Source: Lachnospiraceae bacterium (GTDB lineage: Bacteria; Bacillota; Clostridia; Lachnospirales; Lachnospiraceae). Taken from it: a stretch of 64,000 nt of DNA. Under the pieces are notes generated by a model. The model saw nothing but the letters and a program-made list of their open reading frames with translations. It made no database searches and was not told the origin of the DNA. Within the stretch, counting starts at the first letter, position 1. Each line of letters opens with the position of its first letter. The stretch is taken from NCBI GenBank assembly GCA_015057665.1, contig SVDY01000004.1:62001-126000 (forward strand). The letters are read 5' to 3'. Positions 37,893 to 61,093 of the stretch are shown here, one piece after another. The position numbers were made by a program, and so were the translations under genes.

Positions 37893-38245
37893 AGTATGCG
37901 AGCCTGACGATAAGCCGGGTTATGTCGCGAATGATCATCTATCTCTTCCTGCTGTTGCCAACAGGCTTTAGCGGCCAACCTGGAGAAACTCGGGCCAAGC
38001 TATACTCTCCTATCCGGCCTTGCTTCGGATGGGGTTTACAGGGACGCCTTCTGTTACCAGAAGACCGGTAAGCTCTTACCTCACCTTTCCACCCTTACCA
38101 GACGAATCTGGCGGTATATTTCTGTTGCACTTTCCTTGGAGTCACCTCCACCGGACGTTATCCGGCATCCTGCCCTGTGAAGCCCGGACTTTCCTCACCG
38201 CCTCCCTTTCGTCTGAGACGGCGCGATCATTTATCGGACTCGCGC
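37893..38245 (-). ncRNA. rnpB: RNase P RNA
   Basis: Minus-strand sequence carries the conserved RNase P core: GAGGAAAGTCCGGGCTTC (P4 5' side region) followed by ACAGGGCAGGATGCCGG, a GTGCAACAGAAA segment (J11/12-P12 region), GGTAAGGGTGGAAAGGTG, and the 3' CGACATAACCCGGCTTAT. It is the catalytic RNA that matures tRNA 5' ends. Length ~350 nt fits. 5' end inferred from the promoter, 3' end from complementarity of the CATAACCCGG segment with CCGG near the start; both are good to within a few nt. Confidence 0.96.
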
Positions 38246-38311: not shown

Positions 38312-39985
38312 TTATTTAAAGAAACAGCTTCCACCGATAAATTCTCTGAGAACAGAATTATTTGGCACAGTTGCACTGTCTGTACCGACGAAGTAGGACA
38401 GGAATTTCAGCAGTCTCTTCGCCTGAATGCCTTCCGGTGTATTCGGATCCACCTGGAATAAAAGAGGCTGGGCATACTGTTTTAAAATACTAATCTCGTA
38501 TATCAATGAAGAATTAAACATCACATCCGCTTCTTCCTGATATGGGAAAATGTTCTTTTCCTCCCCGGCACGTACAGAAGACCACATACCGATGGTCTTC
38601 TCCGGAGAAGCGCCTCTTCCCACCACATCGCGGGTCATACGACGGAGCAGTCTTCCATCTGTTGCCGCAATACTGTTATGTGCATCTACGTTAATAGACG
38701 TCATGGCGCTGATGTAAATCTTGAATTTATCTTCCTTTGGAATCTTGTATGTAGCACGCTCATTAAGACCGTGAATTCCTTCGATTACAAGAATCCCTTT
38801 CTCTCCAAGCTTTAAAGTGTTGCCTTTATACTCCCTGAGTCCTGTCAGAAAGTTAAACGTCGGCATGGCAACTTCTTTCCCTGCCAATAAAGCAAGAATA
38901 TCCCGATTCAAAACTTCGATATCTACTGTCTCCAGAGCTTCAAAGTCATATTTTCCTGTTTTGGGATCAATGGGCGTATTGACACGGTCTACAAAATAAT
39001 CATCCATAGCAATCGGATGAGGTTCCAATCCATGAGCCGAAAGCTGAATAGAAAGCCTATGGGAAAAGCTTGTTTTTCCGGAAGAAGAAGGACCTGCTAT
39101 AAGAACAACCTTCTTACCGGATTCGGCAATCTCATCGGCAATCTCACCGATACGTTTCTCCATCAGAGCCTCCTGCACAAGAATCAGGTTCTGCATCTTT
39201 CCTTCCGCGATACACTGATTCAGATCCCCAACTGTGGCCACCTTCATGGTCTTTGCCCAGTCTTTGGACTGTTCTAAAATTTCAAAAAGTTTAGGGCGGT
39301 CAATAAATGTATCTTCCTCCCAGCGTCCTTCTCTCATACTTTCCTCGGAAGGAAGATGCAAAAGAAAACCATCCCGATAAGCTTCCAGTCCGAGAATCTT
39401 TACATACCCCGTAGATGGCGCCATATATCCATAGAAATAATCTGCGTAATCATCTAAAAAATATACATTCATGTGGGAGTGAACACGAAAACGAAGCATT
39501 TCCTTTAATTCCTTCGCCCTTCTTGGAGAAAAATACCGATCCACTTCGTCGCTGGCCACATGATTCTTCACGATTCTTAAATCAAGCCCAATCAGTTCCC
39601 TCATGCGTACTTCCACTTTGTCTAGCACATCACCGGAAAATATCTTCCCGTTACTGCATTCACAGTACACACTGCTTCCAAGCACATGGCGGAATTCAAT
39701 ATTGTCTTCTGCTTCTCTTCCTAAAATATCTTTAAAAGCTTTCAGCATGATCAGGCAGGCACTGCGGCGGAAAGCCATATAGCCGTTAGTAGAGCTGATC
39801 TGTTTAAATTCAACCCTTGTGTAATCTTCTACCTTCTTATAAAGTTCAGACAGTTTTCCATCTACTTCTGCCAGAATAATCCGATTTCCATCCTCTTTAT
39901 CAAAATCCTTTGCCAGCTCTTCTAAAGTTCTATTTTTATCTACAAAAAACTTTCTTCCATCAATAAACACTCTGCATAACTCCAT
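38312..39985 (-). CDS. Nucleoside (uridine) kinase with TGS-like and ThrRS-like N-terminus
   Basis: 557 residues. The N-terminus resembles the TGS domain (VFIDGRKFFVDKNRTLEELAKDF) and a tRNA-synthetase second additional domain (FRHVLGSSVYCECSNG, VKNHVASDEVDRYF). The C-terminal half is a Udk/PRK-type P-loop kinase: GPSSSGKTSFSHRLS near 295, DDYFVDR, and IEGIHGLNE. Known in Firmicutes as 'nucleoside kinase'; likely phosphorylates uridine/cytidine in pyrimidine salvage. GAAAGGATG precedes the ATG. A ~600-bp structured element separates it from nif3. Confidence 0.88.
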   Translation of the reverse strand: MELCRVFIDGRKFFVDKNRTLEELAKDFDKEDGNRIILAEVDGKLSELYKKVEDYTRVEFKQISSTNGYMAFRRSACLIMLKAFKDILGREAEDNIEFRHVLGSSVYCECSNGKIFSGDVLDKVEVRMRELIGLDLRIVKNHVASDEVDRYFSPRRAKELKEMLRFRVHSHMNVYFLDDYADYFYGYMAPSTGYVKILGLEAYRDGFLLHLPSEESMREGRWEEDTFIDRPKLFEILEQSKDWAKTMKVATVGDLNQCIAEGKMQNLILVQEALMEKRIGEIADEIAESGKKVVLIAGPSSSGKTSFSHRLSIQLSAHGLEPHPIAMDDYFVDRVNTPIDPKTGKYDFEALETVDIEVLNRDILALLAGKEVAMPTFNFLTGLREYKGNTLKLGEKGILVIEGIHGLNERATYKIPKEDKFKIYISAMTSINVDAHNSIAATDGRLLRRMTRDVVGRGASPEKTIGMWSSVRAGEEKNIFPYQEEADVMFNSSLIYEISILKQYAQPLLFQVDPNTPEGIQAKRLLKFLSYFVGTDSATVPNNSVLREFIGGSCFFK

Positions 39986-40022: not shown

Positions 40023-40324
40023 TTTTGACACGATTTAGTTTTTGAATCGTTTTCATCCCTGGTTTTGATTCTCATCCCAGCTCTGTCAGCAAGAAATACT
40101 AAAACTTGATATCAGAACGGCAGTATGGGATATTATTCATGGCAGCTTTCGTAAAATCGAAAACTCGCTACCTGTTATTATCATTGGATATTGTCTAAGA
40201 GCTCAAACACTCGATTTTACTAGCCCGTTCTGCTATCTTCGTTAAGTATTTCTAAGCTTCCGCCGAATGGTCTGAAAACCAAAAACAGGGATGGAAACGA
40301 TTTCTAATTACTGTATAAAACAGT
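40023..40324 (+). repeat. Left copy of the inverted structured pair (hairpin 1)
   Basis: Main stems: CATCCCTG (40054-40061) with CAGGGATG (40286-40293); AGAAATACT (40092-40100) with AGTATTTCT (40245-40253); CAGAACGG (40113-40120) with CCGTTCTG (40225-40232); GTAAAATCGA (40151-40160) with TCGATTTTAC (40211-40220). The 50-nt apex carries GGATATTGTCT. Confidence 0.7.
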
Positions 40325-40625
40325 GCATTAATTTTAAAAACTTAATATCGGTTCCGTGTATTCTTTTGAGGTTTATGACGTTCGGAGAAGTTCTAGATGT
40401 TCTTGACGAAGGGTAAAGGGCGTACAAATAAAATCACATGTTTGAACTCATAGACACTATCCTTGTCATATAACTAAAAGTGAGTTTGTGATTTTATGGA
40501 AACAGCCAAAGACAATATCCATATCTGTAGCCCTTTAAACAAGTCTTAGAACATCTTAACGACGGAGCCGGAAGGAACCACAAAAGAATACACGGGAGCG
40601 ATTCGAGTATAAAATCGTGTCAAAA
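40324..40625 (-). repeat. Right copy of the inverted structured pair (hairpin 2)
   Basis: Read on the minus strand it aligns with the left copy without gaps. Main stems (plus-strand coordinates): CCGTGTATTCTTTTG (40354-40368) with CAAAAGAATACACGG (40581-40595), 15 bp perfect; GATGTTCT (40396-40403) with AGAACATC (40548-40555); AAAGGGC (40415-40421) with GCCCTTT (40530-40536); ATAAAATCACA (40428-40438) with TGTGATTTTAT (40487-40497); AACTCA (40445-40450) with TGAGTT (40481-40486). Confidence 0.7.
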
Positions 40626-40626
40626 A

Positions 40627-41409
40627 CTATAAAACCTGATACGGCATTCCTTCGAAGAAAGGAACCGCCTCCACATCCTCTAAGGACTCTATGTATTCAC
40701 ACAGATGCCCGATAAACACCTGCTCTAATCCGTAATGGCCTGCTTCGATGACAGCAAATCCCATATCCATGCTGTCCAGTCCTTCATGGTGGCCAATATC
40801 TCCTGTGATGAGAACATCTACTTTTTTCTTATCTGCTTCTTTTATCATGCTGCGTCCGGATCCGGGAGATACAGCAGCATATTCTACCATACGGTTAAGA
40901 TCGCCAAATACAAGTACATTGGAAAGGCCGAATGTCTCTTTTACTTTTGCAGCACACTGGGCAAGTGTCATTTTTTCCGGAAGTTTTCCAACCTGGCCGA
41001 TTCCTACCAGACGGTCTTCTATCTCACCCATGACCTCAAATGGTTCCGGATTCACAAGACCCATCTTTGCTCCGCAGATTTCAGCCATGCCGCCGGCAAT
41101 ATCATAGTTGGTGTGCATGGCATAACAGCAGATGCCGTTCTCGGCCATAATAAGAACTTTATCGCCAATGAAGCTGTCATCATTTACCTGTTTCATTGCA
41201 GAAAAAATCATAGGATGATGAGTCAGGATCATATCTGCACCAATCTCCACAGCTTTCTCTACTGCTTTTTTTGTTGCATCAAGAGCAACAAGAACTTTTT
41301 TTACTTCCTTTTCTTTTCTTCCGCAGATGAGTCCGGGATTATCCCACCCACAAGCGTAAGAAGGAGGAGCAAGCTCCTCCAACATTCTAATGATATCTTT
41401 ACATTTCAT
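40627..41409 (-). CDS. Nif3-like dinuclear metal-centre protein (YqfO/GTP cyclohydrolase I type 2 family)
   Basis: 260 residues of the single-domain, short form. Metal-binding motifs: LTHHPMIFSAM (HH), MHTNYDIAGGM, TGDIGHHEGLDSMDMGFAVIEAGHYGLE (HH...E). The family is conserved and binds two metals; function is not settled. It overlaps the trmK stop by 11 bp, a typical trmK-nif3 pair. GGAGAAAG lies upstream within trmK. Confidence 0.93.
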   Translation of the reverse strand: MKCKDIIRMLEELAPPSYACGWDNPGLICGRKEKEVKKVLVALDATKKAVEKAVEIGADMILTHHPMIFSAMKQVNDDSFIGDKVLIMAENGICCYAMHTNYDIAGGMAEICGAKMGLVNPEPFEVMGEIEDRLVGIGQVGKLPEKMTLAQCAAKVKETFGLSNVLVFGDLNRMVEYAAVSPGSGRSMIKEADKKKVDVLITGDIGHHEGLDSMDMGFAVIEAGHYGLEQVFIGHLCEYIESLEDVEAVPFFEGMPYQVL

Positions 41410-60933: not shown

Positions 60934-60960
60934 ATATACACAATAAAAAACTCTAACTTG

Positions 60961-61074
60961 TCTTCTCTCATCCAGACTATACTGTCGGTTCCGGAATTCC
61001 TATTGGTCACCGGATCAGCCTTACGGCTCGCGGACTTTACCGCCGGTGGGGAGTTTCACCCCGCCCTGAAGAAC
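60961..61074 (-). promoter_or_regulatory. FMN riboswitch (RFN element)
   Basis: Minus strand carries the conserved aptamer from GTTCTTCAGGGCGGGGTG, through GGCGGTAAAGTCCGCGAGC and GATCCGGTGA, to GACAGTATAGTCTGGATG and GAGAGAAGA. It binds FMN and controls ribU through the following terminator. Confidence 0.97.
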
Positions 61075-61093
61075 GTTTCCTATTTACAGAGCT

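Follow-up and report, generated by a model that had tools for sequence, protein, structure and literature searches.

A 603-nt element in a Lachnospiraceae genome is probably a doublet of mobile palindromes whose arms are kept complementary by template switching

The 603-nt element at positions 40023..40625 of the window, by which we mean the whole 64,000-nucleotide stretch of Lachnospiraceae DNA analysed here, is probably a doublet of palindromic, non-autonomous mobile DNA in which template switching maintains the complementarity of the arms. It consists of two inverted palindromic units, the one on the + strand followed by the one on the − strand, placed between nif3 and a kinase gene. The tip and core of these units are mobile: they are present in many copies, the insertion site is unoccupied in congeners, and terminal repeats are common to three doublets. 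The arms are not fixed; each mirrors its partner, and at one locus the mirrored sequence is the end of trmD.

When compared with its own reverse complement without gaps, the 603-nt stretch matched at 60.4% of positions, against a mean of 26.8% (sd 2.4, max 34.2%) in 1000 shuffles. This agrees with the dyad symmetry that an earlier note had described from the letters of the window, and the 14-nt outer arms, both internal hairpins and the stem pairs named there are all present in the sequence. The left terminal inverted repeat, TTTTGACACGATTT (40023..40036, +), was read directly, and outward of it the symmetry extends through TATAG. The right repeat, AAATCGTGTCAAAA (40612..40625, −), adjoins the nif3 stop codon. 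Unit 1a, a locus-specific outer stem plus a core, occupies 40023..40306 (+), and unit 1b, composed in the same way, occupies 40342..40625 (−). Their conserved cores lie at 40085..40268 (+) and 40380..40563 (−) and score 180 bits (E 1.6e-34) and 186 bits (E 7e-36), respectively, with the covariance model R1 described below, both units being among the 11 sequences from which that model was built. The core of unit 1a carries an expanded tip, AACTCGCT .. AGCTCAAACA (40162..40209, +), which is the counterpart of a short tip, AACTCGCTTCGCTCARACA, found in other genomes, and the expanded tip of unit 1b is AAACTCACT .. AGTTCAAACA, read on the − strand (40439..40487, −). The direction of each unit is set by an asymmetric internal loop, and by this measure the order in the pair is + then −.

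The element interrupts a conserved gene pair. Upstream is a gene of the DUF34/NIF3 family (40627..41409, −; PF01784, E 1.6e-72) whose stop codon abuts the element, and downstream is a PRK/uridine kinase-like gene (38312..39985, −; PF00485, E 1.2e-15). The spacer between them is about 640 nt here, 22 nt in G001 and 81 nt in G002, two congeners, and the adjacency is kept in the next relatives with spacers of about 15-100 nt. The earlier note had proposed a look for empty sites in this gap in relatives, and neither congener has an element there. The ends of the element allow a target-site duplication of TA or TATA; because those ends are themselves palindromic, the duplication cannot be fixed. 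Elsewhere in the window, an FMN riboswitch lies at 60956-61077 (−, 103 bits).

A DNA search of the window's genome (G000; 81 contigs, 93% complete) found further copies of the element. No match was obtained by blastn with the element in 60 relatives, and no close relatives were found in plasmids, phages or E. coli. We built covariance model R1 from the ~184-nt core of 11 units of G000, and a search of that genome with it returned 22 full-length units (E 2e-36 to 1e-14) plus remnants. The earlier note had listed a fold-back transposable element among its possibilities, and these copies, the doublets with a common terminal repeat and the unoccupied site speak for it. All 22 units are intergenic, mostly between tandem genes, and none is in a divergent (promoter-to-promoter) gap, as judged from longest-ORF predictions of the gene neighbourhoods. 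Three doublets share TTTTGACACGATTT or near variants of it as terminal inverted repeats beside TA-rich flanks; in the two besides ours (L020, L021), one unit is internally deleted in each. Single units share no common terminal inverted repeat, and several have ATAG-like ends. R1 also gave weaker core matches in six other Lachnospiraceae genera, which on reading were clear palindromes with the tip in five of the six, while the matches in G200 resemble chance hits in coding sequence.

A unit is 180-300 nt long and begins, outermost, with a locus-specific stem of about 15-70 bp. Next inward come the stem AAGAnnTTCT / AGAAnnTCT, which is conserved and bordered by fixed loop bases, then a stem around GAACGG / CCGTTC followed by a long 5′ internal loop, and innermost a stem around GTAAAATC / GATTTTAC, capped by the tip AAACTCGCT .. 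AGCTCAAACA. Certain core positions are invariant, at a mean identity between units of only 63%. Neutral decay by itself does not account for such invariance in copies so diverged, which calls for either locus-by-locus selection or ongoing mobility. The outer stems are self-complementary at each locus and have nothing in common between most loci; that of L056, for example, has no second occurrence in the genome except as the opposite arm at its own locus. Beside the palindrome, the outer arm is present as a tandem duplicate at two loci, in the left arm of L046 (before the core at 1501) and at about 1620-1770 of L281, as if copying had slipped.

The two halves of the doublet are not sister copies. 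The cores of 1a and 1b are 62% identical, the mean between two units of the genome being 63%, and the tree places the two in different clades, 1a together with the C42 unit and 1b with that of C47. The earlier reading of two inverted hairpin copies thus stands, refined in that the copies are not sisters. An origin by inverted duplication of one unit is ruled out by the identity and the tree; the grouping with C42 and C47 indicates that the doublet was assembled from two lineages.

The source of the arms is clearest at L049, where a unit lies between trmD and a ribosomal-protein-L19-like gene (names assigned by eye from translations). The palindrome there extends into the last trmD codons (..SKKEQEYLKKLMEQ*), and the arm on the other side mirrors the trmD end in decayed form, with a score reached by 0 of 2000 shuffles. 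The arm on the trmD side is the native one, because the protein of G002 has a homologous end, ..LTPKEQQYLERLIEI.. Palindromy past the stem was also significant at L039, L053 and L054 (0/200 controls each), and at L051, L053 and L054 it seems, by eye, to take in the terminators of flanking genes, so that mirrored terminators are less firmly established than the mirrored trmD end. Of the 22 units, then, the one beside trmD plainly has its native flank in inverted copy, and four others show this with less certainty. The mirrored trmD end and flanks indicate that some arms, at least, are the native flank duplicated in inverted orientation.

The tip reaches well beyond this genome. In other genera a compact 19-nt form, AACTCGCTTCGCTCARACA, replaces the expanded tip, and the strand opposite it contains GCGAAGC, an exceptionally stable DNA mini-hairpin. 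We found the 19-nt tip in at least 118 DNA stretches of the genome collection (L071-L188), and among the matches listed it caps a palindrome (p at most 0.01) at 95 of 113 testable sites. The titles of the tip-bearing stretches are those of what we take to be Pseudomonadota, Bacteroidota, Bacillota and relatives, Nitrospirota, Desulfobacterota, a gastranaerophilal cyanobacterium and Patescibacteria; same-tip palindromes occur in at least seven phyla. The stems of these palindromes are unrelated between the taxonomic groups that share the tip. Within 250 Lachnospiraceae genomes, the tip (at most one mismatch) was present in 23, in up to 24 copies, and a backwards control pattern gave few matches. 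Close pairs of tips across other genomes were in +− order in 18 of 24 cases (binomial p 4e-7). Isolated mismatches outside Lachnospiraceae were strand-asymmetric, 102 vs 55 over 118 sites among the matches listed (Burkholderiales 25 vs 3, the rest 59 vs 26), with wobble favoured on the TGTYTGAGCGAAGCGAGTT strand, which hints at single-strand folding, as DNA or RNA, in those taxa. As queries in a plasmid search, the Ralstonia and Parabacteroides relatives gave no match and the Variovorax relative hit a single plasmid. Matches in viral contigs were set aside, as only 4 of 19 sit on a palindrome and most look like chance or coding matches. No paper came up in a literature search for the tip, whether as DNA or translated, with subscription journals mostly uncovered and novelty therefore uncertain; the family of same-tip palindromes seems to be undescribed so far.

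The earlier note took the compensated stem changes to imply selection on a fold and considered either one large non-coding RNA or a convergent pair of smaller ones. The changes themselves are genuine: over the 22 units, 86 cells were doubly changed, against 24 in shuffles, with only 2 cells changed on one side (G·U), and the covariation score was 0.434 compared with 0.164 in shuffles and at most 0.08 in slid controls. A structured RNA kept by selection on its fold would account for this strong covariation, and also for the very low folding energy of the element (−211.5 kcal/mol vs −138 in shuffles, z −9.7), the conserved unpaired loop positions and, outside Lachnospiraceae, the mild bias of wobble-type mismatches towards one strand. 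However, RNA tolerates G·U, and not A·C, on its own strand, and in whole palindromes of 21 units (1624 paired positions) the isolated mismatches were 17 G·U and 18 A·C and were strand-symmetric (18 vs 17). Near-equal counts are what results when one DNA arm is copied from the other. The class A RNase P RNA of the window (37895-38242, −, 295 bits), our positive control for G·U pairing, had 12 G·U and 1 A·C in 97 pairs, which puts the share of G·U at 12% there vs about 1% in the 21 units (Fisher p 1e-8). Nor are recent changes compensated. Between 1b and C47, a recent pair (96% identical), eight pairs changed with 0 of 8 compensated, and between 1a and C42 (84%) seven pairs changed on both sides vs 24 single-sided breaks or repairs; thus individual copies deteriorate, and on longer time scales complementarity is re-established or renewed. 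Because copying of one arm from the other at the DNA level yields the same pattern, the covariation need not mean selection on an RNA fold. The 603-nt element had no match in Rfam at the gathering threshold or at E up to 1, and both the dispersal of 22 copies in the genome and the entry of one palindrome into coding sequence are further points against an RNA. Together this makes a structured RNA, whether one large molecule or a convergent pair, very unlikely, and the evidence from Rfam, wobble pairs, strand symmetry and recent decay leaves both forms unsupported.

Two kinds of known mobile DNA were also weighed. A classical MITE moved by a DDE transposase would have fixed terminal inverted repeats, a TA duplication and arms that diverge with age, and the TTTTGACACGATTT repeats of three doublets beside TA-rich flanks, as well as the ATAG-like ends of several units, would suit it. 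Most units have no common terminal sequence, however, yet their arms are near-perfectly complementary, which independent decay of fixed repeats cannot produce, and the trmD coding end lies inside one palindrome; we regard this origin as unlikely. Quite unlikely, in our judgment, are REP/REPIN-like repeats moved as folded single-stranded DNA by a Y1 transposase of the RAYT or IS200-like kind. Such repeats would occur, as these do, between genes and as singlets and inverted doublets, the +− order of 18/24 doublets is as expected for them, the mismatch asymmetry suggests one folded strand, and G000 encodes one IS200-like TnpA. Against this, matches to RAYT (NF047646) do not track tip presence in 250 Lachnospiraceae genomes, and the units are 5-10 times longer than REPs and do not have their GTAG/CGTC tag (PMC3733652). 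Around the tips, no convincing protein family recurred in the loci examined; several recurrent clusters of neighbour proteins turned out to be spurious frames across GC-rich repeats and were discarded.

We therefore favor mobile palindromes with template-switched arms. In this reading the conserved tip and core are the part that moves and spreads, and a nascent strand may fold back at the hairpin tip and copy its own arm, as in snap-back synthesis or quasipalindrome correction. Template switching of this kind would produce double changes that are Watson-Crick only, without selection at the RNA level. The tip may be recognised as a folded single DNA strand by a host or mobile enzyme, and the doublet would move as one unit, in the manner of a REPIN. 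A more tentative extension is a cross-phylum class of mobile DNA whose new copies would inherit nothing but tip and core, each insertion building its arms by fold-back copying of the target. If arms are built in this way, an inverted target duplication would take the place of the usual direct one, and the mode of spread would be distinct from transposition with direct duplication. The usual proof that an RNA has a functional fold is covariation, and here covariation counts were passed by a DNA-level pattern; the symmetry of G·U and A·C mismatches is a simple test that separates the two origins. The 19-nt motif common to palindrome tips in at least seven phyla points to a recognising enzyme to be sought.

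The process that most resembles the one proposed is template switching at inverted repeats. Template switching is documented to homogenise the arms of inverted repeats in yeast (PMC8604942) and to cause mutation at quasipalindromes in E. coli (PMC7202029), and our units are like quasipalindrome correction in that arms are made identical at the DNA level, with double changes and without wobble intermediates (PMC7202029, PMC8604942). Quasipalindrome correction is known as a process of local mutation and is not known to belong to a dispersed family with a conserved tip. In the REP/REPIN system, a REP is 20-40 bp long, with conserved stems, one of the tags GTAG and CGTC, and a cognate RAYT (PMC2817692, PMC3116915, PMC3733652). 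The family described here resembles REPs and REPINs in being palindromic and non-autonomous and in occurring between genes in many copies per genome, singly or as inverted doublets, but its units are 180-300 bp, the stems differ from locus to locus, conservation is confined to tip and core, and there is no association with RAYT. Like MITEs and fold-back transposons, the units are short, non-coding and multi-copy, have inverted arms and lie in intergenic DNA; unlike them, they have arms that vary between most loci and may incorporate native flank, and transposase-type ends are common only to three doublets. In the attC sites of integrons, the folded structure matters and the stem sequence varies, with conserved ends and a variable tip. 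Compared by description, the stem variation is alike, whereas the conserved part is the tip in our family and the ends in attC.

Some tip-bearing sites have recurrent surroundings. At L153 and L179 (Aliivibrio and Vibrio), the tip is found where the surrounding sequence fails to score as a palindrome; the flanks there are attC-like, of the form ..GCTTAAGACTGAATTCGTAAACGCGTGCC..tip..GGCACACGTTCACTCAC..GCTTATAAG, and these are possible integron cassette sites. Palindromes of Bacteroidota and Pseudomonadota often have another hairpin, of the type CTTTTTGnnTTGnnnCAAAAAGTAACnAAAAAnTCAAG, at the start of their left side; this left-end module recurs at L147, L131, L102, L083, L109 and L214. Several viral contigs (L216, L222, L228, L237, L248) have the context AACTCGCTTCGCTCAAACActggcgcacttcg..cccccgtgatacaggacggggg in common.
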